From the NCBI GenBank assembly GCA_017936785.1, contig JAGBEV010000015.1, positions 1-64,000 of the forward strand: a stretch of 64,000 nt of DNA, in the 5' to 3' direction. The notes beneath the pieces are model-generated. The model saw nothing but the letters and a program-made list of their open reading frames with translations. It had not been told where the DNA came from and made no database searches. The stretch comes from Lachnospiraceae bacterium. GTDB taxonomy: Bacteria > Bacillota > Clostridia > Lachnospirales > Lachnospiraceae. Position 1 is the first letter of the stretch. Each line of letters begins with the position of its first letter. Below, in pieces: positions 1 through 55,753 of the stretch. Position numbers and translations under genes: made by a program.

Positions 1-860
1 ATATAGGGTCAACCATGGCAGTCAGCGATGAAGCTGGAAATGTCATCTATCGTTTTGTTTATGATACCTATGGGGAATTAAGTGATATCCGGACAGATGA
101 CGGTATCAGCTTAAAGACGGCAGAAGCAGTACAGGATGCTGTGAAGGATATAACCCTTGCGGAGTTAGCAGATGCTGCCGGAATTGCATATCTGTATAAT
201 GGGCAGTATGGCGTTACTACTGACAGGAACGGTCTGTATTACATGAGGGCGAGATATTATGACCAGGATATCAAGCGTTTCATCAACCGGGATGTGGTAA
301 GCGGAGATATCACTAATAGTCTCAGCCTGAACAGGTACTGCTATGTACAGGGAAATCCTGTGAGCCTGGCAGACCCGTTTGGATTGTGTCCTGATGGGAA
401 CAGTACCATGCAGGGATTAGCCGGTTCGTTGGCGAATACCACAGAAGAATTGTTAGGTGTTGGAAAACGGATGTTGAATTCAAATACCTATGGACATAGT
501 GTGCTGGCGCGGATAGGAAATTACTGGCACATGGCAAATGTAATCAATGTGGCATGGTATATAGCAGAAAGTGATTATGAAACGATCAGCACCTATGGAC
601 ATGCGGCACTGGATCTGGCAGGAATCGTCTGGGACGGAGCAGATGTGATCAATGCAGTCTGGTATGCGGCAGAAGGCAACTATGAGATGGCGGCGATATG
701 TGCATTGCCGTTTGTGGGATCGCTAGTGGGTGGTTCAGCTGGACTGGCGATGAAAATGATGGGACATGGGCTGACATTTGCCATGGCAACAGAAGGAACC
801 ATAGAAGCCGTGGGAAGAGCGATGGACGCATATGAAAATGGTGGAATGCGCTGGATGTAG
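1..860 (+). pseudogene. RHS core end and pretoxin region, 5' end outside window, 3' end frameshifted
   Basis: The reading frame is open from the first base, so the gene begins upstream of the window. It encodes the end of an RHS repeat-associated core: an HIGS-type motif, GLYYMRARYYD around residue 75, RFINRD, and the DPFGL boundary near residue 120. After DPFGL comes a pretoxin region with two related WY-rich segments (VINVAWYIAE and VINAVWYAAEG) and a glycine-rich hydrophobic stretch. In other RHS proteins this core ends in a variable C-terminal toxin. Here the frame stops at TAG 858-860. Compared with the second copy, 13 bases are missing at about 840-844; without that loss the frame would run into the TNT toxin domain that follows. 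RHS identity is clear. Whether the frameshift is biological or a sequence error cannot be told here. Confidence 0.85.
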
Positions 861-897
861 GGATCAATGCGCTGGGAATGGGACTTGCAGGAAGGGC
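1..897 (+). repeat. Direct repeat, copy A of RHS core/pretoxin
   Basis: This stretch is homologous to 2085-3015. The first ~145 bases are identical, and similarity then declines through the variable pretoxin region but resumes around 580-897. Such same-orientation copies are substrates for recombination that would swap or delete the toxin-immunity segment between them. Confidence 0.9.
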
Positions 898-1369
898 ATT
901 TGGCAACAGCTTGGGAAGTGCGTTAGCTGGCAAGACGGAAACTGGGGTTTTCAGCAATGCGATTTCACGGGTTAAGGAGCGGGTTGCAGCAAATAAGAGT
1001 GGTAGTAAAAAAATAAGAACTGATGAATTAGTTGTAAGAGACAGCAGATTTTTAGATGCAGATGGAAATATTAACTGGGAGAAATGGGCTCCGAATGGTG
1101 GTCGAGTACCAGGAACGATCAAGGAAAATCAAACTATTCCTGTAGGAACTATTATTGATAGATATGGAAGTCAATGGGGAAAATATACATCACCAGTAGG
1201 TGTACCATATGAACAAAGGGCACTGCCTTATATTGAGAATCCAAATGCATATCATAAATATGAAGTATTAAAACCGATTGATAATGTTACAATATCAAAG
1301 ATTGCTCCGGCATTTGATCAAGTAGGGGTGGAATACAGTATGAACTGCCATACAATATTAAAAAATTAA
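878..1369 (+). pseudogene. TNT-family toxin tip (NAD+ glycohydrolase-type), separated from its RHS carrier by a frameshift
   Basis: The first in-frame ATG is at 878, but the frame continues the RHS pretoxin sequence from about 845 (ALDVGIN, GLAGRA), so this is the 3' part of one original gene rather than an independent start; no convincing ribosome binding site precedes 878. Residues ~65-160 resemble the tuberculosis necrotizing toxin domain: DRYG...GKY, then QRALPY, YHKYEV, and a final FDQVGVEY. The Arg, Tyr, Arg, His and Gln that I recall as conserved in TNT domains are all present. TNT enzymes hydrolyse NAD+ in the target cell. The tip is more AT-rich than the core, as is usual for exchangeable RHS tips. 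The next gene is the likely cognate immunity gene. Confidence 0.8.
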
Positions 1370-1401
1370 AAGACCTAGGTTATATAAAGGAGATTAATTA
1401 A

Positions 1402-1623
1402 ATGACTAGAGGAATATTAGAAAAAAAATTAAAAAAAGCTGGGGTTCCAGATTATGTCTATAATCTTACAGAACAGGGAAAAAAAGATGAGCGTTTGTGC
1501 TTAGAAAAAATTAAAGATAAGTGGTCTGTTTACTATTTAGAAAAGGGTATTAAGACAACAAATGAGTTTTTTGATTCGGAAGATGATGCGTGTCAATTTT
1601 TGTATGAACAATTAATGAATTAA
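1402..1623 (+). CDS. Candidate immunity protein for the TNT-type toxin
   Basis: A 73-residue, charged, probably cytosolic protein starting at ATG 1402 behind AAGGAGATTAATTAA. It begins 32 bp after the toxin stop codon. It has no signal peptide or membrane segment; the C-terminal motif FDSEDDACQFLYEQL is acidic. Its position straight after a TNT tip, its small size and its AT-rich composition match immunity genes of polymorphic toxin systems, where a small protein binds and neutralises the adjacent toxin. I do not recognise a named immunity family with certainty. It remains intact although the toxin is frameshifted, which fits continued need for protection against siblings carrying the intact toxin. 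Confidence 0.65.
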   Translation: MTRGILEKKLKKAGVPDYVYNLTEQGKKDERLCLEKIKDKWSVYYLEKGIKTTNEFFDSEDDACQFLYEQLMN

Positions 1624-2002
1624 AGGAATATTTTAACTTTATTATTGTTATTTATTCAGACTTACTTCAACCTAAACTCCATGACCTATGATGAGGACAA
1701 CCGCCTGCTGACCTATAACGGACAGAATGTGGAATACGATGCAGTGGGTAACATGACCAGAGGAACCTTAAAGGTTGGCATGGCAGAATTTACTTATGAC
1801 TGCCGGAACAGGCTTATTCGGGTTGAGGAAGAAGACGGAACGGTCACAGCCTATGAGTATGATGCGGAAAATATCAGGACAGCAGTCATTACGAATGGCA
1901 TCCGTACGGAATACATCACTGACAGGGAAAGCACCTACAGCCGGGTACTGATCAGGACGGAATATGAGAAGAATTTCCTTGGATTCTATACAGAACAGCG
2001 CA

Positions 2003-2006
2003 CCCC
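2003..2006 (+). other. C4 run at the RHS frameshift
   Basis: One C too many here breaks the RHS frame. Homopolymer C runs are common places for slippage, and also for sequencing error. Confidence 0.6.
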
Positions 2007-2084
2007 GGACTGTATATACTTATGGGATCGGTCTGATTAGTGAAAGGAGAGATGATAACCAGGAATTTTATTACCATTATAACC

Positions 2085-3015
2085 ATATAGGGTCAACCAT
2101 GGCAGTCAGCGATGAAGCTGGAAATGTCATCTATCGTTTTGTTTATGATACCTATGGGGAATTAAGTGATATCCGGACAGATGACGGTATCAGCTTAAAG
2201 ACGGCAGAAGCGGTACAGGATGCGGTGAAGGATATAACCCTTGCGGAGTTAGCAGATGCTACCGGGATTGAATACCTTTACAACGGACAATATGGCGTTA
2301 CTACTGACAGGAATGGTCTGTATTATATGAGGGCGAGATATTATGACCAGGATATCAAGCGTTTCATCAACCGTGATGTGGTCAGCGGGGATATCACAAA
2401 CAGTATCAGCCTGAACAGATACCGCTATGTGCAGGGAAATCCGGTGAGTCTGGTAGACCCGTTTGGATTGTGTCCTGATGGAAACAGCACCATGCAGGGG
2501 TTAGCCAACTCGATGATGGGAAGCATGGGTGGAATGTTTAACATTACAGGTCAGTTAAGAGGCTCATATAATCCATCAAGTATTGTTGGACATATGTTAT
2601 TGAGCCGAATAGGAAATTACTGTCATGGAGCGGATATCATCAATGAGGTGTGGTATGCAGCAGAAAGAAACTATGATGCAATAAGTACCTATGGACATGC
2701 AGCACTGGATCTGGCAGGAATTGTCTGGGACGGAGCAGATGTCATCAATGCGTTATGGTATGCAGCAGAAGGCAACTATGATATGGCAGTAGTCAGCGCA
2801 AGCTGTGCACTGCCATTTGTAGGAAATATTGTCGGCGGTTCGGCAGGACTGGCGATGAAAATGATAGGACATGGGCTGACATTTGCTATGGCAACGGAAG
2901 GAACCATAGAAGCCGTGGGAAGAGCGGTGGATGCATATGAAAATGGAACCCTGAGCTGGTGGAATGCTCTGGATGTGGGGATCAATGTGCTGGGAATGGG
3001 ACTTGCTGGAAGGGC
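2085..3015 (+). repeat. Direct repeat, copy B of RHS core/pretoxin
   Basis: Homologous to 1-897 at an offset of 2084 bases at the left end. Copy B keeps bases around 2945-2961 that copy A has lost (13 bp between TGG triplets) and has a different middle of the pretoxin region. Confidence 0.9.
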
Positions 3016-3037
3016 GGCATATTTCAGCGGAAAGTAG

Positions 3038-6842: not shown

Positions 6843-6858
6843 ATAACTGTTATTTATA
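6843..6858. promoter_or_regulatory. Weak candidate LysR operator upstream of leuB
   Basis: ATAAC-N6-TTATA matches the core shared by the stronger sites at 48253-48273 and 53883-53903, but the outer bases differ. Its centre is about 78 bp before the -10 box, roughly two helical turns further than at the other sites. Confidence 0.3.
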
Positions 6859-6905
6859 AAGAGTATTCCTTGAAGTTATACAAAGCGGTTTTAATATGAA
6901 ATGTA

Positions 6906-6934
6906 TTGATATTTACAGCAGTTTCCGATATGAT
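6906..6934 (+). promoter_or_regulatory. Promoter of the leuB-ilvD-ilvB genes
   Basis: TTGATA, 17 bp, TATGAT. The leader of about 75 nt contains a small perfect hairpin (TCCTGA/TCAGGA, 6984-7001) just before the leuB ribosome binding site. I see no T-box. Confidence 0.6.
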
Positions 6935-7018: not shown

Positions 7019-8119
7019 ATGGAATTAAATATTGTATGTATTCCGGGAGACGGAATCGGTCCGGAAATTGTGGCAGAAGCTAAAAAGGTGCTGGATGCAG
7101 TAGGAAGCAAGTTCGGACATACTATGAAATATACGGATATCTTAATGGGAGGAGCATCTATTGATGTGCATGGCGTTCCCCTTACAGATGAAGCTATAGA
7201 GACTGCAAAGTCTGCAGATGCGGTTTTAATGGGTTCTATCGGCGGTAATACGACTACCAGTCCATGGTATCAGCTTCCGCCTGACAGGAGACCGGAAGCC
7301 GGATTGCTGAAATTAAGAAAGGCATTAAACCTATTTGCTAACTTAAGACCGGCAGTCTTATATGATGAATTAGCAGGTGCATGTCCATTAAAGGAAGAAA
7401 TCTCCAAAGCAGGTTTTGACATGATGATCATGAGGGAACTGACGGGTGGTCTATATTTCGGAGAGCGGAAAACCGAAGAAGTGGACGGCAAGCTGGTGGC
7501 AGTGGATACGCTGACTTATTCTGAGGATGAGATCAGAAGAATTGCGGTCAAAGGCTTTGATATTGCCATGAAAAGAAATAAAAAAGTAACCAGCGTTGAT
7601 AAAGCCAATGTATTGGATTCCTCCAGACTTTGGAGAAAAATCGTGGAAGAGGTAGCAAAGGCTTATCCGGAAGTGACCTTAGAGCATATGCTGGTTGATA
7701 ACTGCGCCATGCAGCTTGTAAAGGACCCGGCACAGTTTGATGTGATCTTAACAGAGAATATGTTTGGAGATATTTTATCCGACGAAGCAAGCATGGTAAC
7801 CGGTTCTATCGGTATGCTTGCATCCGCTTCCCTGAATGATACCAGGTTCGGTCTTTATGAGCCCAGCCACGGAAGTGCACCGGATATTGCAGGATTAGAC
7901 ATTGCTAACCCTATTGCAACCATACTTTCCGCATCCATGATGCTGCGCTATTCCTTTGATCTGGACAAAGAGGCAGATGCCATTGATGCAGCGGTCAAGC
8001 AGGTGTTAAAGGATGGATACCGTACTGTGGATATCATGCCGCAGGAGGAAAGTGAAAAAGCGAGATTCTCCCAGGTGGGATGCAGCAAAATGGGTGACCT
8101 GCTGGCTGAGAGAATTTAA
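7019..8119 (+). CDS. leuB: 3-isopropylmalate dehydrogenase
   Basis: A 366-residue NAD-dependent dehydrogenase that oxidatively decarboxylates 3-isopropylmalate in leucine synthesis. Family signatures are GDGIGPEIV at the N-terminus, the [10 protein letters not shown] loop, [13 protein letters not shown] near residue 245, and [18 protein letters not shown] 7019 follows AGCGGAGGATGAAAA. It heads a run leuB-ilvD-ilvB on one strand with gaps of 48 and 80 bp. The other leucine genes leuCD are at 54-55.8 kb; leuA is not in the window. Confidence 0.97.
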
Positions 8120-8167
8120 TATACAAATGAGGGAATAGATTAAAAATATGAGAAAGGATGAAATGAA

Positions 8168-9832
8168 ATGAGAAGTGATAGTGTAAAAACAGGAGTGGCA
8201 CAGGCACCTCACAGAAGCTTATTTAATGCATTAGGCTATACGGAGGAGGAGAGACAGAGACCTCTGATCGGTATTGTGTGCTCATATAATGAAATTGTTC
8301 CCGGTCATATGAATCTGGATAAGATCTGTGACGCAGTTAAGATGGGAGTGGCAATGGCAGGCGGTACACCGGTCATGTTTCCGGCTATTGCTGTATGTGA
8401 CGGTATTGCCATGGGACATATCGGCATGAAGTATTCTCTGGTTACCAGAGATCTGATTGCGGACAGTACGGAATGTATGGCAATGGCTCACGGTTTTGAC
8501 GGGCTGGTAATGATTCCCAACTGTGATAAAAATGTTCCCGGTCTTTTAATGGCTGCGGCAAGAGTCAATATCCCTACGATCTTTGTTTCCGGCGGACCCA
8601 TGCTTGCCGGGCATGTAAAAGGAGAAAAGAGAAGTCTTTCCAGTATGTTTGAAGCTGTAGGAAGTGTTGCGGCAGGTACAATGACTATGGAAGATCTTTG
8701 TGAATTTGAGGAAAAGGTTTGTCCTACCTGTGGTTCCTGTTCCGGTATGTATACGGCGAACTCCATGAACTGTCTCACAGAAGCCCTTGGTATGGGATTA
8801 AAAGGAAATGGTACGATCCCTGCTGTTTACAGTGAAAGAATCCGTCTTGCAAAACATGCAGGCATGAAGATCATGGAACTGGTAGAAAAGAACATTAAGC
8901 CCAGAGATATCATGACAGAAAAGGCATTTATGAATGCCCTGACCGTTGATATGGCTTTGGGATGTTCCACAAACTCCATGCTGCATCTGCCGGCAATCGC
9001 CCATGAAGCAGGCGTAGAGCTGAATCTGGATATTGCCAATGAATTGTCTGCAAAGACCCCGAACCTTTGTCATCTGGCTCCTGCAGGTCCTACCTATATG
9101 GAAGATTTAAATGAAGCCGGCGGCGTTTATGCGGTCATGAATGAGTTAAATAAGAAGAACCTGTTATATACGGATTTACTTACCGTAACAGGCAAGACCA
9201 TAGCAGAAAATATTGAGGGATGTGTCAACAAAGATCCTCAGGTTATCCGTCCTATTGATAATCCCTATTCCGAAACAGGCGGCATTGCTGTTTTAAAGGG
9301 TAATCTGGCTCCTGACAGCGGCGTTGTAAAACGTTCCGCAGTAGTGCCTGAAATGATGGTCCATGAAGGACCTGCAAGGGTATTTGACTGTGAAGAAGAT
9401 GCCATTGATGCTATTAAAGGCGGTAAGATCGTGGCAGGTGATGTGGTTGTTATCCGTTATGAAGGACCAAAGGGCGGTCCGGGTATGAGAGAAATGCTGA
9501 ATCCGACTTCGGCAATTGCCGGAATGGGCTTGGGTTCCAGTGTTGCTTTGATCACGGACGGACGTTTCTCGGGAGCTTCCAGAGGCGCCTCTATCGGACA
9601 TGTTTCTCCTGAAGCGGCAGTGGGCGGGCCTATTGCTCTTGTGGAAGAAGGCGACATCATCAGTATCAATATTCCGGAAAATAAACTGGAAGTTAAGATT
9701 TCCGATGAAGAAATGGCAGCAAGAAAAGCAAAATGGCAGCCCCGTGAACCTAAGGTAACTACCGGTTATCTGGCACGTTACAGGGAACTTGTTACAAGCG
9801 GCAACAGAGGCGCTATTCTTGAGATCAAATAA
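8168..9832 (+). CDS. ilvD: Dihydroxy-acid dehydratase
   Basis: A 554-residue Fe-S dehydratase for valine and isoleucine synthesis, converting 2,3-dihydroxy acids to 2-keto acids. The cluster-binding cysteines are visible in NCDKNVPG (after MIPN) and [16 protein letters not shown], and the C-terminal [11 protein letters not shown] motif is intact. ATG 8168 has an AAAGGATG ribosome binding site. It follows leuB by 48 bp and precedes ilvB by 80 bp, so the three probably form one operon. Confidence 0.97.
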
Positions 9833-9912
9833 CTGAAACAATACATTACAATGCTTGGACATGAGGATATAATGGACAAGATATAAAAGTCTATAAGGGA
9901 GAGGATTGAACT

Positions 9913-11583
9913 ATGCAGTTAACAGGTGCGGAAATTGTAATAGAATGTTTAAAGGAGCAGGGAGTTGATACCGTATTCGGTTATCCCGGCGGAACCATTT
10001 TAAATGTATATGACGCATTGTATAAACACAGCGATGAGATCAGACATGTGCTCACATCCCACGAACAGGGCGCAGCACATGCGGCAGACGGTTATGCAAG
10101 AGCAACGGGCAGGGTTGGCGTATGTATGGCTACAAGCGGTCCCGGCGCCACTAACCTGGTTACAGGTATTGCAACAGCCTATATGGATTCCATTCCGGTA
10201 GTTGCAATTACAGCAAACGTAAATCTGCCGGCTTTGGGCAAGGATTCTTTTCAGGAAGTGGATATTGCAGGTGTTACAATGCCTATTACCAAGCACGGTT
10301 ACATTGTAAAGGATGTAAACCAGCTTGCAGACACATTGAGGAAGGCGTTTTATATTGCCAAAAGCGGAAGACCCGGCCCGGTTCTTGTGGACATTACCAA
10401 AGATGTAACAGCCAATAAGGCTGAGTTTACACCTATGACACCGGAACCTGTAGAAAGAAAATCCGCTTATACCGATGCAGACATTGATAAAGCCCTGGAA
10501 TTGATTGAAAAGGCAGAAAAACCTTTTATCTTTGTGGGCGGCGGTGCAATCTTATCCGGTGCTGCAGAAGAAGTACGAAAGCTGGCAAAGAAAATTGATG
10601 CACCTGTCTGTGATTCCCTGCTTGGCAAGGGCGCTTTTGACGGTCATGATCCTTTATATACAGGAATGCTTGGCATGCACGGAACAAAGGCATCCAATCT
10701 GGGCGTATCTGAATGTGACCTGCTCATTGCCCTGGGTGTCAGATTTTCAGACCGTGTTATCGGCAATCCTAAGAAATTTGCAGAAAACGCCAGAATCATA
10801 CATATCGATATAGATGCTGCGGAAATCAATAAAAACATTAAGACAGATGCAGCAATTGTGGGTGATCTGAAAGAGGTTTTGACAAAATTAAATGAGAAGG
10901 CTGCTTCCAAGGAGCACAAGGAATGGACGGCTCATGTGGAAGCTTATAAAGAAAAGTATCCTTTAAAATATGATGAAACTACATTAAGCTGTCCATACTT
11001 TATCGAGCAGCTGGATAAGGCTACAGAGGGAAAAGCGATCATTACGACTGACGTAGGACAGCATCAGATGTGGGCAGCCCAGTTTTATCAGTATTCAGAG
11101 CCAAGGACCTTCCTGTCATCCGGCGGTCTTGGCACCATGGGATACGGATTGGGCGCATGTATCGGGGCAAAACTGGGCAGACCGGATAAGACTGTTATCA
11201 ATGTGGCAGGAGACGGCTGTTTCCGTATGAACATGCAGGAACTTGCAACAGCAAGCCGCTATCAGATTCCCATTATCGAGGTTGTGATCAATAATCAGGT
11301 ATTGGGCATGGTAAGGCAATGGCAGACTCTGTTTTATGGACATCGCTATTCACAGACCATCCTCAATGATGAGGTAGACTACTGCAAAGTAGCAGAAGCT
11401 TTAGGATGCAAAGCGTATAAGGTAACTACAAAGGAAGAGGCGCTTCCTGCTATTCAGGATGCGATTGCCTGCGGAAAGCCTGCATTGATCGAAGTAGTGA
11501 TCCATGAAGATGATAAGGTATTCCCTATGGTTTCACCGGGAGCGCCCATCAGTGAAGTTTTTGATGCAGATGACATACAATAA
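9913..11583 (+). CDS. ilvB: Acetolactate synthase, large catalytic subunit (copy 1)
   Basis: A 556-residue thiamine-diphosphate enzyme that condenses pyruvate with pyruvate or 2-ketobutyrate. Visible are the catalytic Glu in SHEQGAAHAADGYARATG, CMATSGPGATNLVTGI, the ThDP/Mg motif VAGDGCFRMNMQE...NN, and VLGMVRQWQ with the Trp that in studied AHAS enzymes favours 2-ketobutyrate. No small regulatory subunit gene is next to it; both ilvN-like genes are at 47.7-48.9 kb beside a second large subunit. RBS GGGAGAGG, ATG 9913. Confidence 0.95.
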   Translation: MQLTGAEIVIECLKEQGVDTVFGYPGGTILNVYDALYKHSDEIRHVLTSHEQGAAHAADGYARATGRVGVCMATSGPGATNLVTGIATAYMDSIPVVAITANVNLPALGKDSFQEVDIAGVTMPITKHGYIVKDVNQLADTLRKAFYIAKSGRPGPVLVDITKDVTANKAEFTPMTPEPVERKSAYTDADIDKALELIEKAEKPFIFVGGGAILSGAAEEVRKLAKKIDAPVCDSLLGKGAFDGHDPLYTGMLGMHGTKASNLGVSECDLLIALGVRFSDRVIGNPKKFAENARIIHIDIDAAEINKNIKTDAAIVGDLKEVLTKLNEKAASKEHKEWTAHVEAYKEKYPLKYDETTLSCPYFIEQLDKATEGKAIITTDVGQHQMWAAQFYQYSEPRTFLSSGGLGTMGYGLGACIGAKLGRPDKTVINVAGDGCFRMNMQELATASRYQIPIIEVVINNQVLGMVRQWQTLFYGHRYSQTILNDEVDYCKVAEALGCKAYKVTTKEEALPAIQDAIACGKPALIEVVIHEDDKVFPMVSPGAPISEVFDADDIQ

Positions 11584-43494: not shown

Positions 43495-43542
43495 ACTTAC
43501 CGTATATGTTTTTAAAGGATTTGACAGAATCGAGGAGTCATG

Positions 43543-46050
43543 ATGACAAAAGAAGCTTTTCGTAAATTATGCAGTGATAAAATCATATATTTGGACGGAG
43601 CTACCGGTTCCAATCTGATGAAAGCGGGCATGCCTGTAGGAGTCTGCCCGGAGCAGTGGATTTTGGACCATGAAGACGCTTTATTGGATTTACAAAGGGC
43701 ATATGTGGATGCGGGAACCAATATTGTATATGCGCCTACTTTTACTGCCAACAGGATCAAACTTGCCGAGTATGATCTGGATGAAAGAATACAGGAAATT
43801 AACGAAAGGCTGGTTAAATTATCTAAAAAAGCAGTGGACGGCAGGGCTTTGGTTGCCGGAGACCTGACCATGACAGGTAAGCAGTTAAAACCATTAGGAC
43901 CCTTGGAATTTGAAGAATTAATTGATGTTTATAAAGAACAGATCCGTTTTCTGGAGGAAGCGGGAGCAGATCTGCTGGTCATTGAAACCATGATGAGTTT
44001 ACAGGAAACAAGAGCGGCAGCTATTGCGGCCATGGAGGTAAGCAGTCTTCCGGTTATGGCAACCCTGACCTTTGAAACGGATGGCAGGACCCTGTTTGGT
44101 TCCGATGCCCGTTCAGCGGCTATTGCATTGACAAGCCTTCATGTGGATGCCATTGGGGCAAATTGTTCTACGGGACCGGATCAGATGTGCGAGGTGATCC
44201 GTGCCATGGCAGAGGTAACAGAGCTTCCTTTGATCGCCAAGCCCAATGCGGGACTTCCTTCTTTAGATGAAGAGGGAAAAACGGTATATGATATGGACAG
44301 CGATACCTTTGCTTTAGAAATGATACAGATCGTGGAAAGCGGAGCTTCCATTCTGGGCGGATGCTGCGGTACTACACCGGAATATATTGAGAAGCTGGTA
44401 AAGCAGACAAGCTCATTGAAAGTCAGCCGCAAGTCCCTTAGAGGGCGGCATTTTCTCTGTTCAGAAAGGCAGTCTTTGGAATTTGGCCTGGATGACCGTT
44501 TTATGATCGTGGGTGAGAGGATCAATCCCACGGGAAAGAAAAAACTGCAGGCAGAGCTTCGGGAAGGAAAACTGGATCTGGTAGGACAGTTCGCCAGAGA
44601 ACAGGAAGAATGTGGTGCCAGGGTTCTTGATATCAATATGGGTATGAGCGGTATTGATGAACAGGAAATGATGCTTACGGTTTTGGAAGAGGTTGCAAAT
44701 ATTACTTCTTTGCCCCTTGCCATTGATTCCAGCCATGTGGAAGTGATCGAGGCGGCGCTGAGGAGATATCCCGGCAGGGCATTGATCAATTCCATTTCCT
44801 TTGAAAGCGCAAAAATAGCCCCCTTGCTTCCTATTGCCAAAAAATATGGAGCCATGTTCATTCTGCTTCCCCTTTCGGACGCAGGACTGCCAAAGGATCT
44901 GGCTGAAAAGAAAGAGATTATTCATGAAATTTTAAATAGAGCCCTGGATCTGGGCATGACTAAGGATGATATTGTAGTGGATGGTCTGGTTGCCACAGTA
45001 GCAGCCAACCCAAAAGCGGCAATTGAGACATTGGAAACGATACGGTACTGCAAAGAAATGGGACTTGCTACCATTTGCGGATTATCCAATATTTCCTTCG
45101 GACTTCCTGAAAGAATGAATGTAAACAGCGCATTTTTGACTATGGCGATCCAATCGGGACTTACCATGGCAATTGCCAATCCCAATCAGGAAATGTTAGT
45201 CCATGCTGCATTGTCTGCGGATCTGCTTATGGCAAAGGAAGAAAGCGATCTTGCCTATATCGAACGAATGAATGCGGTAAAGGAGGCAAGGGAAGCATTT
45301 CTAAAGGACAATCCGGGCGCAGTGGTTTCTGTGTCTTTAGGAAACGGTGCAGCGGGTCAGAACGGTTTGGGCGGAAAAGCCGGAGCAGGAACAGGAGATG
45401 CAAAAAAAGATGAAACCTTAGGCGGTTCACTGGGACAGGTAAAGGAAGCCGTCCTGAAGGGTAAGCAAAGGGATATCCTTTCACTTACCCGAAAAGCAAT
45501 AGAAGAAAACATTCAGCCTCAGGATATTTTAAATGAGGCACTGCTGCCGGCAATCGAAGAAGTGGGTGATTTGTTTGACTGTGGGAAATATTTTCTACCC
45601 CAGCTGATCGCCAGTGCCGAGACCATGAAAAAATCCATTGAATATCTGGAACCTCTGTTAAAGGCAGAAGGTGCGGATTCTACCATGCCCACCATAGTGA
45701 TCGCTACGGTAAAAGGAGATATTCATGATATCGGCAAAAATCTGGTCGCACTGATGTTAAAAAATCATGGTTTTTCCGTTATAGATCTGGGAAAGGATGT
45801 TCCCAGGGAAGAAATTATCAAAGCGGCAAGAGAAAATCATGCCAAGATCATTGCCCTTTCCGCATTGATGACAACTACCATGCAGGAAATGAAAAATGTT
45901 ATTGACCTTGCGAAACAGGAAGGTCTTGAAGCAAAGGTTATGATCGGCGGCGCAGTCATTACCCAGGAATATGCTGATGAGATCGGTGCTGACGGATATT
46001 CCAGGGATGCGGCAGATGCGGTGAAACTGGCACAGAAACTTTGTGACTGA
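43543..46050 (+). CDS. metH: Cobalamin-dependent methionine synthase, without the reactivation domain
   Basis: An 835-residue enzyme transferring a methyl group from methyltetrahydrofolate via cobalamin to homocysteine. Domains: homocysteine S-methyltransferase (1-~300, zinc cysteines in GANCSTGP and GGCCGTTP), pterin-binding (~320-580, GERINPTGKK and SAIDSS-type text), a Gly/Ala/Lys-rich linker (~595-630), B12 cap and B12 fold with DIHDIGKN as the cobalt-ligand motif. The AdoMet-binding activation domain of E. coli MetH is absent, as is common in Firmicutes where it may be a separate protein. Of two adjacent ATGs I prefer 43543 for its spacing to GAGGAG. Confidence 0.95.
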   Translation: MTKEAFRKLCSDKIIYLDGATGSNLMKAGMPVGVCPEQWILDHEDALLDLQRAYVDAGTNIVYAPTFTANRIKLAEYDLDERIQEINERLVKLSKKAVDGRALVAGDLTMTGKQLKPLGPLEFEELIDVYKEQIRFLEEAGADLLVIETMMSLQETRAAAIAAMEVSSLPVMATLTFETDGRTLFGSDARSAAIALTSLHVDAIGANCSTGPDQMCEVIRAMAEVTELPLIAKPNAGLPSLDEEGKTVYDMDSDTFALEMIQIVESGASILGGCCGTTPEYIEKLVKQTSSLKVSRKSLRGRHFLCSERQSLEFGLDDRFMIVGERINPTGKKKLQAELREGKLDLVGQFAREQEECGARVLDINMGMSGIDEQEMMLTVLEEVANITSLPLAIDSSHVEVIEAALRRYPGRALINSISFESAKIAPLLPIAKKYGAMFILLPLSDAGLPKDLAEKKEIIHEILNRALDLGMTKDDIVVDGLVATVAANPKAAIETLETIRYCKEMGLATICGLSNISFGLPERMNVNSAFLTMAIQSGLTMAIANPNQEMLVHAALSADLLMAKEESDLAYIERMNAVKEAREAFLKDNPGAVVSVSLGNGAAGQNGLGGKAGAGTGDAKKDETLGGSLGQVKEAVLKGKQRDILSLTRKAIEENIQPQDILNEALLPAIEEVGDLFDCGKYFLPQLIASAETMKKSIEYLEPLLKAEGADSTMPTIVIATVKGDIHDIGKNLVALMLKNHGFSVIDLGKDVPREEIIKAARENHAKIIALSALMTTTMQEMKNVIDLAKQEGLEAKVMIGGAVITQEYADEIGADGYSRDAADAVKLAQKLCD

Positions 46051-46093
46051 TATATAACAGGAATTCAATAAAGAAAGGTTTAGGTGAAATAAA

Positions 46094-47710
46094 ATGATAG
46101 GTGCAGACGCAATGGTAAAATGTCTGGAAGCAGAAGGGGTAAAAGCGGTTTTTGGTTATCCCGGAGTTGCTATCTGTCCGTTTTATAATAGTATTTTGGA
46201 ATCGGATATTGAGAGTGTACTTGTAAGAACAGAGCAAAATGCAGCCCATGCAGCAAGCGGTCTGGCAAGAGTAACTGATGGAATCGGTGTATGTGCAGTT
46301 ACAAGCGGTCCCGGCGCCACCAATCTGATCACAGGAATTGCAACAGCCTTTGCTGACAGCATTCCCATGATTTGTATTACCGGTCAGGTAAACAGTGAAC
46401 TTTTGGGAAGCGATGTATTTCAGGAAGCGGATATTACCGGTGCTGTGGAATCTTTTGTAAAATACAGCTATCTGGTTAAAAATGTAGAAGATATTCCCAG
46501 GATTTTTAAAGAAGCTTTTCATATTGCCACAACAGGAAGAAAGGGACCTGTGCTCATTGATGTCCCCATTGATGTCCAGAATGCACAGATCAGCAAATTC
46601 AAATATCCTGAAGAGGTATCCTTAAGGACCTATAAGCCTACGGTAAAGGGACATATCCAGCAGATCAAAAAAGTCATCAAAGAGCTGGAAAGAGCAAAGA
46701 AGCCGATTATCTGTGCCGGAGGCGGCGTTTCCTTATCCCAGGCAGGAGAGGATTTGATCAAATTTGCAGAGAAAAATCAGATTCCCGTTGTTTCAACTAT
46801 GATGGGTATCGGAGTTATGCCTACCAAACATCCTCTTTATTTCGGAATGGTGGGAAATAATGGTAAGCCTTATGCCAACCGTGCCATGAATGAAGCGGAT
46901 CTGATCATCATGGTGGGTGCAAGGGTTGCGGACCGTGCCATCAGCCAGCCGGATCTGATCGTTGATAATAAAACACTGGTACATATTGATGTGGACCCTG
47001 CGGAAATCGGCAAAAATGTAGGTCCCAATATTCCGTTGGTAGGGGATGCAAAACATATTTTCGGGGATTTTGAGAAACAGGAGTTTGAAGGTGATTACAG
47101 CCAGTGGCTGGAAACATTGAAAGAGTACAGGGAAGCAATGGAACCTAAGAGAAAAGAGCATCCCGGTTTTGTGGACCCTGCAGCTTTCATTACCAGATTA
47201 TCCGAAAAAATGGATGATGATGCAGTTTATGTAGCGGATGTAGGTCAAAATCAGATCTGGTCCTGTGGGTATCATATTGTAAAAAAAGGTAAATTCCTTA
47301 CTTCCGGCGGTATGGGAACCATGGGTTATTCCATACCTGCTGCAATGGGTGCAAAATATGCCTTAAAGGATAAGCAGGTCATTGCCGTATGCGGTGACGG
47401 TTCTTTCCAGATGTCCTTTATGGAGCTGGCTACCATGAGACAGCACGGCATACAGAGCAAGGTTATCGTATTAAAGAATAATTATCTGGGAATGGTCAGG
47501 GAATATCAGCACTATACCTATAAAGATAACTATTCGGTTGTAGATTTATCGGGAAGCCCGGATTTATCCAAGATTGCAGAGGCTTATGGAATGCCCTTTA
47601 TCAGATTGACGGATATGAAGGATGCGGATAAGGCAATTGATGAGTTCTTAAGCTGTGACCGGGCATGCCTTATGGAATGTCTGATCGACCCCATGGATTT
47701 AGTAAAATAA
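46094..47710 (+). CDS. Acetolactate synthase-type large subunit (copy 2)
   Basis: A 538-residue ThDP enzyme. The catalytic Glu is in VRTEQNAAHAASGLARV, the second motif is CAVTSGPGATNLITGI, and ThDP/Mg binding is CGDGSFQMSFMELA...NN. At the AHAS selectivity position it has LGMVREYQ, with Tyr in place of the Trp of copy 1 (RQWQ). It is 43 bp after metH and 10 bp before an ilvN-type gene. I infer acetohydroxy acid synthase, possibly with altered preference for 2-ketobutyrate; another ThDP lyase or carboligase activity is possible. Confidence 0.88.
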   Translation: MIGADAMVKCLEAEGVKAVFGYPGVAICPFYNSILESDIESVLVRTEQNAAHAASGLARVTDGIGVCAVTSGPGATNLITGIATAFADSIPMICITGQVNSELLGSDVFQEADITGAVESFVKYSYLVKNVEDIPRIFKEAFHIATTGRKGPVLIDVPIDVQNAQISKFKYPEEVSLRTYKPTVKGHIQQIKKVIKELERAKKPIICAGGGVSLSQAGEDLIKFAEKNQIPVVSTMMGIGVMPTKHPLYFGMVGNNGKPYANRAMNEADLIIMVGARVADRAISQPDLIVDNKTLVHIDVDPAEIGKNVGPNIPLVGDAKHIFGDFEKQEFEGDYSQWLETLKEYREAMEPKRKEHPGFVDPAAFITRLSEKMDDDAVYVADVGQNQIWSCGYHIVKKGKFLTSGGMGTMGYSIPAAMGAKYALKDKQVIAVCGDGSFQMSFMELATMRQHGIQSKVIVLKNNYLGMVREYQHYTYKDNYSVVDLSGSPDLSKIAEAYGMPFIRLTDMKDADKAIDEFLSCDRACLMECLIDPMDLVK

Positions 47711-47720
47711 GAGGTGTAAT

Positions 47721-48206
47721 ATGAAAAAAATATATTCGGTTTTAGTAGAAAACAGATCCGGTGTACTGGCAAAGGTTGCCGGCTTATTCTCCAGAAGATG
47801 CTTTAATATCGATTCTCTTGCGGTGGGTGAAACCGATGATCATGCGGTGTCCTGTATGACCATTGTCAGCAGTGGAAACGAAAGGACTATTGAACAGATT
47901 GAAAAGCAGTTAAACAAAAAACTGGATGTTATCAAGGTTAAGACCTTTGATGAAGAAAACAGCATTTCCAGAGAATTGATGTTGATGAAGGTCAAGTATA
48001 ACAAGTCAAACCGCAGGGATATTATGGAAATCTGTGAGATCATGAAAGCTGAAATCGTAGATATGAGCAAAAGCTTTATGGTCATCCAGATCTGTGATGT
48101 TCCTGAAAAGATCAAGCTGATGATCGACATGTTTGCGTCCATCAGCATTGTAGAAGTGGCAAGGACAGGAACTCTTGCACTTCCCAAATGCAGCGAGAAT
48201 GAATAA
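47721..48206 (+). CDS. ilvN: Acetolactate synthase small (regulatory) subunit, first copy
   Basis: A 161-residue protein with an N-terminal ACT domain (YSVLVENRSGVLAKVAGLFSRRCFNIDSLAVG) and a C-terminal second domain (ELMLMKVKYN). It would bind valine and modulate the catalytic subunit. ATG 47721, RBS GAGGTG, 10 bp after the copy-2 large subunit, which is therefore its likely partner. 151 bp with an operator-like palindrome and a promoter separate it from the next small-subunit gene. Confidence 0.92.
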   Translation: MKKIYSVLVENRSGVLAKVAGLFSRRCFNIDSLAVGETDDHAVSCMTIVSSGNERTIEQIEKQLNKKLDVIKVKTFDEENSISRELMLMKVKYNKSNRRDIMEICEIMKAEIVDMSKSFMVIQICDVPEKIKLMIDMFASISIVEVARTGTLALPKCSENE

Positions 48207-48252: not shown

Positions 48253-48273
48253 ACTATAACTATATGTTATAGT
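48253..48273. promoter_or_regulatory. 21-bp palindrome, candidate LysR-type operator of ilvN-ilvC
   Basis: ACTATAAC (48253-48260), five bases, GTTATAGT (48266-48273): perfect dyad symmetry. The same 8-5-8 pattern with two changes lies between lysR and leuC (53883-53903). The centre is 57 bp before the start of the -10 box at 48320. Confidence 0.7.
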
Positions 48274-48295
48274 TGGCATAAGACCTGTTCATACG

Positions 48296-48325
48296 TTGAC
48301 AAAGCAGTAAATATGCTGATAAAAT
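48296..48325 (+). promoter_or_regulatory. Promoter of the second ilvN-ilvC
   Basis: TTGACA (consensus -35), 18 bp, TAAAAT, about 33 bp before the ATG at 48358. Confidence 0.7.
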
Positions 48326-48357: not shown

Positions 48358-48855
48358 ATGCAGAAAAAAGTGTTTCAGTTATTGGTGGATAATACCTCCG
48401 GTGTTTTAAGCCGTATTTCAGGATTATTCAGCAGAAGAGGTTATAATATCGAAAGCATTACCGCGGGTGTGACCGCAGATCCCAGATTTACCCGAATTAC
48501 CATTGTGACCAGCGGAGATGATGAGATTTTAGATCAGATTGAAAAGCAGGTAAGCAAGCTGGTGGATGTACGGGATATTAAAGTCCTTGAACCGGATTCT
48601 TCCGTATACAGGGAACTGGTCATGATCAAGGTAAAGGTAGGAGCGGACAGCAGACAGGCAGTCATTGCCATGGCGGATATATTCCGTGCCAAGATCGTTG
48701 ATGTGGCGGCAGACAGCTTAATGGTGGAGATTACCGGTAATCAGAACAAGATCGATGCCTTTATCAATCTGCTGGATGGATATGAAATCCTTGAATTGGC
48801 AAGAACAGGTATTACAGGTCTTGGAAGAGGAACGGATAACGTCACCTATTTATAA
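48358..48855 (+). CDS. ilvN: Acetolactate synthase small subunit, second copy
   Basis: A 165-residue paralogue of the preceding gene. ACT domain: FQLLVDNTSGVLSRISGLFSRRGYNIESITAGVT; C-terminal part: ELVMIKVKVG. The ACT text is closer to canonical IlvN/IlvH than that of the first copy. ATG 48358, RBS AAAGCGGGG. It heads a transcript with ilvC (76 bp apart) from its own promoter and operator. It may serve the ilvB at 9.9 kb, which has no neighbouring small subunit; that is inference. Confidence 0.92.
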   Translation: MQKKVFQLLVDNTSGVLSRISGLFSRRGYNIESITAGVTADPRFTRITIVTSGDDEILDQIEKQVSKLVDVRDIKVLEPDSSVYRELVMIKVKVGADSRQAVIAMADIFRAKIVDVAADSLMVEITGNQNKIDAFINLLDGYEILELARTGITGLGRGTDNVTYL

Positions 48856-48889
48856 TTTTTATTATTGGGAATTGGTTAGCAAATACTAA

Positions 48890-49957
<1,068 letters not shown>

Positions 49958-51969: not shown

Positions 51970-52902
51970 GTGATTTACGATAATGTTCTTGATTGTATGG
52001 GGAGAACACCTGTCATACGTTTAAACAGAATGGTGCCGGAGGATTCAGCGGAAGTTCTGGTAAAATTTGAAGGGTTGAATGTAGGAGGCTCCATTAAAAC
52101 AAGAACAGCCTACTATATGATCAAGCAGGCGGAAAAAGAAGGAAAAATTCATAAGGATACCATTATTGTGGAGCCTACCAGTGGAAATCAGGGAATCGGA
52201 CTGGCTCTGGTAGGTGCAGTAAAAGGATATAAAACCGTGATCATCATGCCGGATTCAGTCAGTGAGGAGCGCAGAAAACTGGTAAGGCATTATGGCGCAG
52301 AAGTTATTGTAGTTCATGATGACGGAAATATCGGGGACGCCATTGAGGAATGTACCCAGATTGCCCTGAAAATGGCGGCAGAAAATCCCAATGTATATGT
52401 TCCCCAGCAATTTGAGAATCCTGCCAATCCCATGGTACATAAACGGCATACGGCACTGGAGATATTAGAGCAGGTGGCAGGCCCCATAGACGGCTTTTGC
52501 TCCGGCATCGGCACAGGAGGAACCTTAAGCGGAATCGGAGAAGTGTTAAAGGCACACAATCCGGATATTACGATCTGGGCGGTTGAGCCGGAAAATGCTG
52601 CGATCCTTGCCGGCGGAACGGTGGGAACACACTTGCAGATGGGAATCGGGGACGGATTGATTCCCCAAAATCTCAATCAGAATATTTATGAAGATATTTA
52701 CGTGGTAAGTGATGAAGAGGCGATCAAAACAGCCAGGGATCTGGCTAAAAAAGAAGGCTTGATGTGCGGTATATCCAGTGGTACAAATGTTGCTGCAGCG
52801 CTGGAAATGGCAAAAAAACTGGGAAAAGGCAAAACTGTCGTAACAGTCCTGCCTGATACTGCAGAGAGATATTTTTCTACACCTCTGTTTGAAGGGGAGT
52901 AG
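51970..52902 (+). CDS. Cysteine synthase family protein (PLP), variant motifs
   Basis: A 310-residue fold-type II PLP enzyme. The start is GTG 51970 behind GGAGGAAATAACA. The PLP lysine sits in GGSIKTRTA, where cysteine synthases usually have GGSVKDR; the substrate loop is TSGNQGIG instead of TSGNTG. The PLP-phosphate loop GIGTGGTLSGIGEVL and the GISSGTN serine motif are normal. Cysteine synthase A (O-acetylserine plus sulfide) is the simplest reading, but the loop changes leave room for another beta-replacement substrate. The last 26 bp overlap the convergent lysR gene. No cysE is near. Confidence 0.85.
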   Translation: MIYDNVLDCMGRTPVIRLNRMVPEDSAEVLVKFEGLNVGGSIKTRTAYYMIKQAEKEGKIHKDTIIVEPTSGNQGIGLALVGAVKGYKTVIIMPDSVSEERRKLVRHYGAEVIVVHDDGNIGDAIEECTQIALKMAAENPNVYVPQQFENPANPMVHKRHTALEILEQVAGPIDGFCSGIGTGGTLSGIGEVLKAHNPDITIWAVEPENAAILAGGTVGTHLQMGIGDGLIPQNLNQNIYEDIYVVSDEEAIKTARDLAKKEGLMCGISSGTNVAAALEMAKKLGKGKTVVTVLPDTAERYFSTPLFEGE

Positions 52903-53794
52903 AGTGCTGTCTGATAAATTCCATGAATTTTTTCATGGTATCTGACATGGGAATGTCTTCTCTATAGGCAAACCCCACCTTACGTTTTGGAATGGTACGT
53001 TTAAAGGTTAATTCTTTAAATGTACCATTTTTAATGTCATCTTTTACAAAATCCCTGATCACACAGGCAATTCCCAGATCGATTTTTGTCAGCTCGATCA
53101 AAAGGTCCATGGTGTTGATCTCCAAAATGTTGTTCATGGTAATCTGATGGGAAGCCAGATAATTGTCAACATATTTACGGGAAATATTTTCTTTGTTCAG
53201 CATCATAAAGTTAGCATTGGCTAATAATGAGGTTTTGTTTCCGTTTTCCCGGATACGGAGATTTTTTAAATAAGTATCCGTAGCCACAAAGGTGTCCTGG
53301 ATCTCACAGACAGGTTCATAATGAAGGGTATCTGTGTTGGAAGGGATTCCCACAAGACCGATTTCCGTTATTCCGTTTTCGATATCCCTGATGGTCTCCA
53401 TGGAAGGATGACAGGTAATGGAAATGGTAATATGTGGATTTTCTTTGATAAATTCTTTTAAATAGGGGAGCAGAACATACTTGCACAGAGTGATGCTGAC
53501 GCCGATAGATAAATGGGAAACGCCCAGCCTTGCGATTTTGTGAAGCTGTTCCTCTCCGCTGTTAATGGAGGCAAAGGCATTTTTTACCTGTTCATAAAGA
53601 ATAGCGCCTTTTTCGGTCAATGTTACCCCCCGGGAGCTGCGAATAAATAAGGTAGTCTCCAGATTATTTTCCAGCTTGGAGATCGCTTTGCTGATGGCAG
53701 GCTGGCTGATAAAAAGCTCCTTTGCAGCAAGAGAAATATTTTTATTTTTTGCTACCGTATAAAAAATATGATACAGATTCAGATTGTTTTCCAT
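52877..53794 (-). CDS. LysR-family regulator, probable regulator of leuCD and ilv genes
   Basis: A 305-residue protein with an N-terminal winged helix (FYTVAKNKNISLAAKELFISQPAISKAISKLEN, residues ~10-42) and a C-terminal effector-binding domain from ~90 (LSIGVSITLCKYVLLPYL, GLVGIPSN). ATG 53794 on the - strand, RBS GGAGG. It is divergent from leuCD, with 195 bp between. Its own predicted promoter (TTTACT, 17 bp, TATTAT, - strand) has a 21-bp palindrome exactly over the spacer, which suggests autorepression; a second copy of the palindrome is at ilvN-ilvC. The effector is unknown; in other LysR regulators of this pathway it is a pathway intermediate. Confidence 0.92.
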   Translation of the reverse strand: MENNLNLYHIFYTVAKNKNISLAAKELFISQPAISKAISKLENNLETTLFIRSSRGVTLTEKGAILYEQVKNAFASINSGEEQLHKIARLGVSHLSIGVSITLCKYVLLPYLKEFIKENPHITISITCHPSMETIRDIENGITEIGLVGIPSNTDTLHYEPVCEIQDTFVATDTYLKNLRIRENGNKTSLLANANFMMLNKENISRKYVDNYLASHQITMNNILEINTMDLLIELTKIDLGIACVIRDFVKDDIKNGTFKELTFKRTIPKRKVGFAYREDIPMSDTMKKFMEFIRQHSTPLQTEV

Positions 53795-53877
53795 GGAAAC
53801 CTCCGTTATCCCCCTTTTGGGAAATCCTTATTTTGACAGTTGGTCCGGGGTGAATTTTTACAATTAAGATGTATTTT

Positions 53878-53906
53878 ATAATACCATAACTGCAAATTAT
53901 AGTAAA
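53878..53906 (-). promoter_or_regulatory. Promoter of lysR
   Basis: On the - strand, TTTACT (53906-53901), 17 bp, TATTAT (53883-53878). The spacer is the operator palindrome. Confidence 0.55.
53883..53903. promoter_or_regulatory. 21-bp near-palindrome, candidate LysR operator of lysR-leuCD
   Basis: ACCATAAC, five bases, ATTATAGT. It differs from the 48253-48273 site at one base in each arm. The centre is 56 bp before a leuC -10-like TATACT at 53949-53954, almost the same as at ilvN-ilvC. TTGACT (53935) with GATAAT (53960) is an alternative leuC promoter with a 19-bp spacer. Confidence 0.7.
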
Positions 53907-53989
53907 CATAAATAATATGTATTTTAATTATGCTTTGACTTATGATAGTATACTGATAGGATAATAAAGATCATAAGGAGGACTATGGA

Positions 53990-55252
53990 ATGGGAATGAC
54001 AATGACGCAAAAGATCCTTGCTGCACATGCCGGGCTGGATAAAGTAGAAGCCGGACAGTTGATCGAGGCAGATCTGGATCTTGTTTTGGGAAATGATATT
54101 ACCAGCCCTGTTGCCATTAAGGAAATGGAAAAGATGAAGGTGGACGGGGTTTTTGATAAGGATAAAATCGCTCTTGTTCCGGATCATTTTGTGCCGAACA
54201 AAGATATAAAATCAGCACAGCATTGTAAATGCGTAAGGGAATTTGCCTGCAAAAATCAGATCACCAATTATTTTGAAGTAGGACAGATGGGGATCGAACA
54301 TGCCCTGCTTCCTGAAAAAGGTTTGACCGTTGCAGGAGATGTGATTATCGGTGCAGACTCCCATACCTGTACTTACGGAGCATTAGGAGCATTTTCCACC
54401 GGTGTGGGAAGTACCGATATGGCTGCGGGAATGGCAACAGGAAAAGCCTGGTTCAAGGTGCCCAGTGCCATTAAATTTAATCTCATTGGAGAACTGCCGG
54501 AATGGGTAAGCGGTAAGGACCTGATCTTACATATTATCGGTATGATCGGTGTAGACGGAGCTTTATACAAATCCATGGAATTTGTAGGAGAAGGTGTGAA
54601 AAGCCTTTCCATGGATGACCGTTTTACTGTAGCGAATATGGCAATCGAGGCAGGAGGCAAAAACGGCATTTTCCCTGTTGATGATCTGGCAGTTGCTTAT
54701 ATGAAAGAACATTCCACTAAAAATTATACTATTTATGAAGCTGATGAAGACGCAGTATATGATGAGGAATATACCATTGATCTGAGCAGTCTCAGACCTA
54801 CCATTGCATTTCCCCATCTGCCTGAAAATACCAAAACCATCGATGAGATCACAGAAGATATTAAAATCGACCAGGTTGTCATCGGTTCCTGTACCAACGG
54901 ACGTATTGACGATTTAAGATGCGCTGCCAAAGTGCTGGAAGGCAGACATGTGGCAGAGGGCATGAGATGTATCATTATCCCCGCAACCCAGGCTATTTAT
55001 CTCCAGGCAATGGAAGAAGGATTATTAAAGATCTTTATCGAAGCAGGTGCGGTTGTTTCCACACCCAGCTGCGGTCCCTGTCTTGGAGGATATATGGGAA
55101 TCCTTGCTGAAGGAGAACGGTGCGTATCCACTACCAACCGTAACTTTGTGGGACGTATGGGACATGTAGATTCGGAAATTTATCTGGCAAGTCCGGCAGT
55201 AGCCGCTGCCAGCGCCGTAGCAGGAAAAATTTCCTGTCCATGCAGATTATAG
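53990..55252 (+). CDS. leuC: 3-isopropylmalate dehydratase, large subunit
   Basis: A 420-residue aconitase-family subunit isomerising 2- to 3-isopropylmalate. The 4Fe-4S cysteines are visible in [14 protein letters not shown] and [13 protein letters not shown], and [23 protein letters not shown] is intact. ATG 53990 is 8 bp behind AAGGAGG. The length is that of the short LeuC class. leuD follows after 12 bp and supplies the second subunit. Confidence 0.96.
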
Positions 55253-55264
55253 GAGGAATGGAAT

Positions 55265-55753
55265 ATGAAAAACGCAAAAGGTATTGTATTTAAATATGGC
55301 GATAACGTGGATACGGACGTTATCATCCCGGCAAGATATCTGAATTCTTCCGACCCGGCAGAGCTTGCCACCCATTGTATGGAAGATATTGATAAGGAAT
55401 TTATTCATAAGGTCAATAAAGGCGATATCATTGTTGCCACCAAAAATTTCGGCTGCGGTTCTTCCAGAGAGCATGCGCCCATTGCCATCAAAGCAGCAGG
55501 GGTCAGTTGTGTTATTGCGGAGACCTTTGCAAGAATTTTTTACCGCAATGCCATTAACATCGGGCTCCCCATCATTGAATGTCCCCAAGCAGCAAAGGCA
55601 ATTGCGGCAGGCGATGAGGTAGAGGTTGATTTTGATTCCGGCAGGATTTATGACAGGACGAAAGGAACCGAATACCAGGGGCAGGCATTTCCGCCCTTTA
55701 TGCAGAAGATCATCGATGCGGAAGGACTGGTAAATTACATCAATGCCAAATAA
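55265..55753 (+). CDS. leuD: 3-isopropylmalate dehydratase, small subunit
   Basis: A 162-residue swivel-domain subunit with [15 protein letters not shown] near the start and the [12 protein letters not shown] substrate-binding motif near residue 62. It works with LeuC in the cytosol. ATG 55265, RBS AGGAGG. It is 12 bp after leuC and followed by a terminator. Confidence 0.96.

Follow-up and report, generated by a model that had tools for sequence, protein, structure and literature searches.

A 21-bp sequence found before two branched-chain amino acid operons of a gut-type bacterium of the Lachnospiraceae is very probably the high-affinity operator of a LysR-type regulator, which is encoded divergently from leuCD and would control lysR, leuCD, ilvN2-ilvC and leuB-ilvD-ilvB. 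The regulator is most likely a feed-forward activator; from the sequence we infer binding, activation and autorepression as well as the mechanism and the effector proposed below. The window, i.e. the whole stretch of DNA that was analysed, comprises 64,000 nucleotides and belongs to a genome of 3.41 Mb in 66 contigs.

Branched-chain genes of the window and the regulator

Branched-chain genes form four groups in the window: leuB-ilvD-ilvB (7019-11583), ilvB-ilvN1 (46094-48206), ilvN2-ilvC (48358-49957) and the divergent lysR-leuCD (52877-55753). lysR is located on the minus strand (52877-53794), and the plus strand carries leuC and leuD, encoding the large (53990-55252; TIGR02083) and the small subunit (55265-55753; TIGR02084) of 3-isopropylmalate dehydratase, ilvN2, the second copy of the gene for the acetolactate synthase small subunit (48358-48855; TIGR00119), ilvC for ketol-acid reductoisomerase (48932-49957; TIGR00465), leuB for 3-isopropylmalate dehydrogenase (7019-8119; TIGR00169), ilvD for dihydroxyacid dehydratase (8168-9832; TIGR00110) and a second ilvB for the acetolactate synthase large subunit (9913-11583; TIGR00118), each over the cut-off of the family given.

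ilvN2 stands in tandem with ilvN1 (47721-48206), and the two encode differing acetolactate synthase small subunits, which are about 37% identical in relatives; the tandem pair is also present in most of the named relatives. A metH-like gene (43540-46093) with S-methyl_trans, Pterin_bind and B12-binding domains has its end 43 bp before ilvB, and the order metH-ilvB-ilvN1 is found again in many relatives. The region 15-3037 contains two ORFs (15-860 and 1964-3037) with a long, near-identical shared stretch, which we take to resemble RHS repeats, followed by differing tails.

The lysR product (305 aa) has the domains of a LysR-type regulator, i.e. HTH_1 (PF00126, E = 3.2e-20) and LysR_substrate (PF03466, E = 4.5e-30), and divergent transcription from a target, another mark of this family, is seen with leuC in 48 of 52 loci. 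None of the best 25 of the 58 NCBIfam families matched is over its cut-off, including the CcpC, CidR, CynR and GltC equivalogs. The regulator is not recognized as an orthologue of IlvY, NF008722 reaching 86.3 bits against a cut-off of 246 with 28% identity over 145 aa, nor of LeuO from E. coli, with which the HTH domain alone aligns (37% over 71 aa). As it is orthologous to neither protein, the effector can be proposed by analogy only. A paralogous LysR-type regulator with 37% identity is encoded elsewhere in the genome (G000:C19:11575-12456) and recurs in most of the genomes from this genus. No description of the regulator was recognized in the open-access literature, to which our search was confined (subscription journals and RegPrecise being outside its scope). 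In the accessible part of a start-site map of Clostridium phytofermentans (PMC5171806) LysR is mentioned once, where a supplement legend gives class counts, and PMC9068703, as far as its accessible part goes, concerns E. coli.

The shared element and the predicted operator boxes at leuC

The sites before leuC (box 1; 53883-53903, plus strand, ACCATAACTGCAAATTATAGT, AT-N11-AT core 53886-53900, centre 53893) and before ilvN2 (box 1; 48253-48273, plus strand, ACTATAACTATATGTTATAGT, core 48256-48270, centre 48263) lie exactly where the preliminary description had placed a shared 21-bp element. They have the pattern ACYATAAC-N5-RTTATAGT in common, and the site at ilvN2 is indeed the perfect 8+8 palindrome that had been reported. 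A scan of the whole genome (3.41 Mb) returned exact matches to the 21-mer at these two places and no third, the match at both being exact by construction, as the pattern was made to fit them. Within the window, six matches with up to three mismatches (at four places, two of which match on both strands) compare with 1.46 expected, and six were reached in one of 100 shuffled windows. When up to two mismatches are allowed, the whole genome shows no enrichment of the 21-mer (8+5 matches vs. 16+15 for the reversed control). Thus, taken alone, it is notable only by exactness and placement, and it is the phylogenetic evidence that decides.

Several further matches were considered. The single place in the genome with one mismatch (C61:69534) was rejected as a site, being located inside a 376-aa ORF, and four of the five one-mismatch composite matches also lie inside ORFs. 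The fifth (G000:C41:366-391, i.e. L041:366-391; matrix score 13.9) precedes an S30AE-type ribosome-hibernation gene and may be a chance match.

For the comparison we used 52 loci, i.e. the window, 11 named Lachnospiraceae loci with lysR relatives of 56-92% identity and 40 regions chosen from 136 regulator-carrying genomes. In 48 of these loci, less than 1.5 kb separates lysR from a divergent leuC; three of the four exceptions (L155, where lysR stands beside ilvC, L164 and L168) contain no leuC in the region, and in the fourth (L169) both genes are on the same strand, about 3 kb apart. One stretch of genome is represented twice (L034 and L143), giving a single duplicate in the lysR-leuC set and likewise in the ilvN2 set; L028 and L036 are very closely related to each other.

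All 48 divergent gaps are over the threshold with a matrix trained on those gaps. One of them (L160) was missed by the EM fit, as only 4 bp separate its box from the lysR start and the flanking columns extend beyond the gap, and is recovered by a shorter matrix, completing the 48. The AT-N11-AT core of box 1 is present in every gap, and the invariant columns are A0, T1, A13 and T14 in box 1 and A22 and T23 in the first half of a second box; in the second half of the latter, A35 is found in 47 and T36 in 46 of the 48 gaps. In the window, this predicted box 2, again AT-N11-AT, is located at 53908-53922 (plus strand, ATAAATAATATGTAT) with its centre 22 bp downstream of that of box 1, and it is present in 46 of 48 gaps. 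A predicted box 3 of the same type (53917-53931, plus strand, ATGTATTTTAATTAT) is centred another 9 bp further on and occurs in 37 of 48 gaps.

Downstream of the boxes, conserved TGnTAnAAT columns in the 48 sequences define an extended -10 element of leuC, which in the window reads TG-A-TAGTAT (53943-53951, plus strand; TG 53943-53944, TAGTAT 53946-53951). No -35 consensus is seen across the 48 aligned leuC promoters, as would be expected for an activator-dependent promoter. The preliminary description had put the centre of the element 56-57 bp before the -10 at both operons. This holds for ilvN2, where TAAAAT follows at 57 bp, but not for leuC: the hexamer chosen there, TATACT (53949), begins 56 bp past the box 1 centre and is 3 bp off the conserved -10, TAGTAT, the first base of which is at 53 bp. 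By convention the first base of the -10 is counted as -12, which places the three leuC boxes near -65, -43 and -34 of the inferred start, i.e. box 1 would be centred at about -65. Taken together, T-N11-A dyads, a box near -65 and a second box about two helical turns on are found here as in operators of the LysR family.

Box 1 also overlaps the predicted lysR promoter on the minus strand (53878-53906), which consists of the -35 hexamer TTTACT (53906-53901), a 17-bp spacer and the -10 hexamer TATTAT (53883-53878). The claim that the site fills the -35/-10 spacer of lysR, a layout suited to autorepression, is borne out in the window and in all seven gaps of the window's genus, each of which has TTTACT and a -10-like hexamer at this position, but it does not extend to the family. 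In 11 of the 48 gaps the box is at most 21 bp from the lysR start codon, and 14 of the remaining 37 match both lysR promoter hexamers in at least four of six positions at the spacing of the window. Judged by these predicted promoters, the spacer-overlap layout for lysR autorepression is not general in the family.

A probable regulon across three operons

Since the leuC boxes are part of their own fit, the independent data are those from ilvN2 and leuB only. A weight matrix was built from columns -1 to 24 of the lysR-leuC sites only, and 350 bp before other genes were scanned with a threshold score of 8. It found matches before ilvN2 in 24 of 37 regions and before leuB in 22 of 36 regions from regulator-carrying genomes, and in eight of 294 control upstream regions. 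At matched stringency, the threshold being set for each matrix separately at its eighth-best control score, the real matrix recovered 23 ilvN2 and 22 leuB regions, and the reversed matrix one and none; 200 column-permuted matrices reached at most six and seven, respectively (means 1.1 and 1.7). Moreover, columns 35 and 36, which are outside the matrix, carry A35 in 100% and 95% and T36 in 83% and 95% of the ilvN2 and leuB matches, respectively. Dinucleotide-shuffle p-values proved too lenient, as two leuB regions from regulator-free genomes (L184 and L188) gave 0.000 and 0.010 despite low matrix scores, and we therefore rely on the 294 real upstream regions.

On both strands of the window, the three highest matrix scores are those at leuC (32.2), ilvN2 (22.9) and leuB (13.1). 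Across 950 kb, i.e. the window and 51 loci, 112 matches reach a score of 11 or more when overlapping boxes are counted and both strands read, and 100 of them are at the three targets; the best of the other 12 precedes another leuB. The two top-scoring controls, upstream of leuB in L169 and upstream of a CBS-domain gene in L165, were kept in the 294, and both are probably real sites. The element in L165 (L165:3602, score 18.9) lies near an ilvB-ilvN pair, and the CBS-domain gene may be an extra target in that lineage.

Before ilvN2, a predicted box 2, AT-N11-AT (48278-48292, plus strand, ATAAGACCTGTTCAT), lies 22 bp downstream of box 1, as it does in 19 of the 24 regions having box 1; a third box is rare (3 of 24). 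The boxes are followed by a predicted promoter, TTGACA-N18-TAAAAT (48296-48325, plus strand; TTGACA 48296-48301, TAAAAT 48320-48325), and TTGACA occupies the same position in most aligned relatives.

The leuB-ilvD-ilvB operon, which was absent from the preliminary description, is a third member. Its predicted upstream box (box 1; 6843-6857, plus strand, ATAACTGTTATTTAT) is the third-best match in the window, and the site scores 8.7 to 15.4 in all seven genomes of the genus with lysR, including the one studied here. A predicted second box, AT-N11-AT, is centred at 6872 (6865-6879, plus strand, ATTCCTTGAAGTTAT), and such a box is found in 20 of 21 leuB regions. The boxes thus span 6843-6879, or 6843-6934 together with the predicted promoter TTGATA-N17-TATGAT (6906-6934, plus strand). 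Here it is box 2, not box 1, that is centred 57 bp before the -10, box 1 being another 22 bp upstream.

Below the threshold are 13 of the 37 ilvN2 regions and 14 of the 36 leuB regions, and a second leuB copy in one genome (G275, L218), excluded from the 36, has no site (score -8.0). Regulon membership thus varies among lineages. leuA (TIGR00970, over cut-off) and three leuA-like loci carry no site, the best matrix score being 5.5. Overall, the comparative evidence supports the proposal of one LysR regulon linking leuCD and ilvN-ilvC, and the regulon is larger than had been claimed, as leuB-ilvD-ilvB joins it.

Site presence follows the regulator

Phylogenetic footprinting of the sites, which had been suggested as a check, showed them to be conserved in relatives keeping both the genes and the regulator and gave no site in genomes for which the regulator had not been found either. 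The two outcomes named beforehand as refuting the proposal, i.e. many unrelated matches in the genome and loss of the sites in relatives with the genes, thus did not occur, apart from the lack of enrichment at two mismatches. In the window's genus, seven of nine genomes, including the one studied here, have a lysR orthologue with at least 78% identity, and in each of the seven the composite precedes leuC as well as ilvN2, with no more than one mismatch. The other two (G004 and G005) keep leuC and leuB without a lysR orthologue and have no site at leuC, none at leuB (scores 5.3 and 2.7) and, in G005, none before ilvN2. Their four and two one-mismatch composite matches are elsewhere, none at leuC or leuB, and were rejected: four of the six are inside ORFs, one is at a contig edge and one (L092) lies in no long ORF.

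A regulator relative at E 1e-70 or better is present in 136 of 397 sampled genomes, and in 36 of the 40 genomes of these 136 for which regions were read it is divergent from leuC. As a control we took 20 of the 261 genomes in which the regulator search gave no match; 19 of them have leuC, and 22 matches gave 20 loci, one of which lacks upstream sequence, leaving 19 readable. In 18 of the 19 readable leuC upstream regions from these genomes, first scored as regulator-free, no site is present (best score 6.8), five of the 18 being upstream of distant leuC paralogues (44-48% identity) and hence a weaker control. The exception, L230, has a site with a score of 28.7 and a divergent lysR with 42% identity, below the cut-off of the regulator search.

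Control by RNA elements was also considered. T-box leaders, which control the same genes in branched-chain operons of Firmicutes, act by RNA antitermination in response to uncharged tRNA, unlike control by a LysR-type protein. Neither a T-box (RF00230, gathering threshold) nor another riboswitch was found in the window, at leuC of G004 and G005 or in the 20 leuC loci from genomes first scored as regulator-free, which gave one match to an unrelated sRNA family. This is a Clostridiales-1 sRNA (RF01699, 110.8 bits; L229:307-476) in the vicinity of leuCD, from a genome in which the regulator had no match. Among 12 of the 14 site-free leuB loci scanned with Rfam, two contain a T-box leader (L199:1126-1426 and L200:2612-2887). 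Both keep lysR and have the T-box at leuB in place of the operator, which suggests an exchange of control mechanisms.

Proposed mechanism and effector

Known LysR systems offer a model for the three boxes at leuC. According to the accessible part of PMC5002191, OxyR has three boxes at -66, -44 and -35 at oxyS, and inducer binding is modelled to move the second dimer from box 3 to box 2. The boxes predicted at leuC, at about -65, -43 and -34, match this pattern; OxyR differs in having a redox signal and unrelated targets, and in our regulon the third box is common at leuC only. We propose that a first dimer would bind box 1 (T-N11-A; near -65 at leuC) and a second one box 2, 22 bp downstream, with the overlapping third box at leuC, 9 bp further on, serving as alternative seat for the second dimer. 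With the effector absent, the tetramer would occupy boxes 1 and 3 and cover the lysR promoter, keeping leuC off and lysR autorepressed. With the effector present, the second dimer would shift to box 2, and RNA polymerase would be recruited to the extended -10 of leuC, which lacks a -35. ilvN2 and leuB, having two predicted boxes and a -35, would be activated in a simpler way.

The effector is probably a pathway intermediate. 2-Isopropylmalate is our favoured candidate, with about an even chance of being the right one, because leuC is the usual partner of lysR, leuB is a target and leuA, the source of 2-isopropylmalate, has no recognizable site. The output of LeuA would then turn on the steps below it (leuC, leuD, leuB) together with the precursor supply (ilvN, ilvC, ilvD, ilvB). 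Two systems are comparable in this respect. LeuO, as far as the accessible part of PMC12494820 goes, is a LysR-type protein that activates leuABCD of E. coli, and 2-isopropylmalate enhances its binding. It resembles our protein as a LysR-type regulator adjoining leucine genes and differs from it as a pleiotropic H-NS antagonist of gammaproteobacteria.

Leu3 of yeast is an activator that senses 2-isopropylmalate and controls leucine and ILV genes, the analogy being one of logic only, as Leu3 is a eukaryotic zinc-cluster protein.

It is possible, though clearly less likely than 2-isopropylmalate, that the same operator and regulon respond to acetolactate or acetohydroxybutyrate. These substrates of IlvC are the compounds to which IlvY of E. 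coli responds (PMC5002191, accessible part), and ilvC is among the targets here. In the same source, the IlvY-ilvC pair of gammaproteobacteria is, like our system, a LysR-type regulator divergent from a branched-chain target with several inverted-repeat boxes, and it combines activation by a pathway intermediate with autorepression, the scheme that we propose. Moreover, lysR is close to ilvN2-ilvC in many relatives and stands beside ilvC in L155, where leuC is missing from the region. Yet the usual divergent partner is leuC (48/52 loci), the site at leuB would control a leucine-only step, and the identity to IlvY of 28% over 145 aa gives no sign of orthology; the partner leuCD, the regulon of three operons and a different operator sequence further separate our system from IlvY-ilvC.

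A regulator that acts on the same operator chiefly by repression, leucine or some other end product being the co-repressor, is improbable. Such a role would fit the overlap of the leuC boxes with the lysR promoter and the closeness of box 3 to the leuC promoter, but box 1 is found at activation positions, i.e. centred near -65 at leuC and, at ilvN2, 57 bp upstream of the -10, and a -35 consensus is missing from the conserved leuC promoter. Still less is to be said for the element being the operator of another regulator and the adjoining lysR a bystander, which we regard as very unlikely: the role of LysR at the element is predicted from sequence, but T-N11-A boxes 22 bp apart are a signature of the LysR family and the site tracks the presence and absence of the divergent lysR. 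Finally, a match due to chance or to common AT-rich promoter sequence, for which the lack of enrichment of the 21-mer over the reversed control at up to two mismatches might speak, is rejected as next to impossible in view of the conservation across genera, the held-out columns and the permuted and reversed matrix controls.

Biological meaning

A feed-forward LysR activator acting through the predicted operator is the most likely reading. Control of branched-chain amino acid synthesis in Firmicutes is usually described via CodY and T-boxes. Here, a LysR-type regulator with a defined predicted operator appears to control most of the branched-chain pathway across many Lachnospiraceae. Mechanistically the arrangement is the usual one for LysR proteins, with no new principle involved; as a regulon it seems to be new, and it recurs within a single bacterial family. 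Predicted operator, promoter and targets are now given at base resolution, so that binding, effector and autorepression are directly testable, and the regulon may be annotated in many uncultured genomes.

In its fullest form, to which we give slightly less than even credence, our reading is that of a LysR master activator new to description and spread through the Lachnospiraceae, which would sense 2-isopropylmalate and drive leuCD, leuB-ilvD-ilvB and ilvN-ilvC via an operator with three boxes and a sliding dimer at leuC, and which would be replaced by a T-box at leuB in some relatives. If this is true, the regulator would be a Gram-positive counterpart of LeuO, and its logic would parallel that of Leu3 in yeast.
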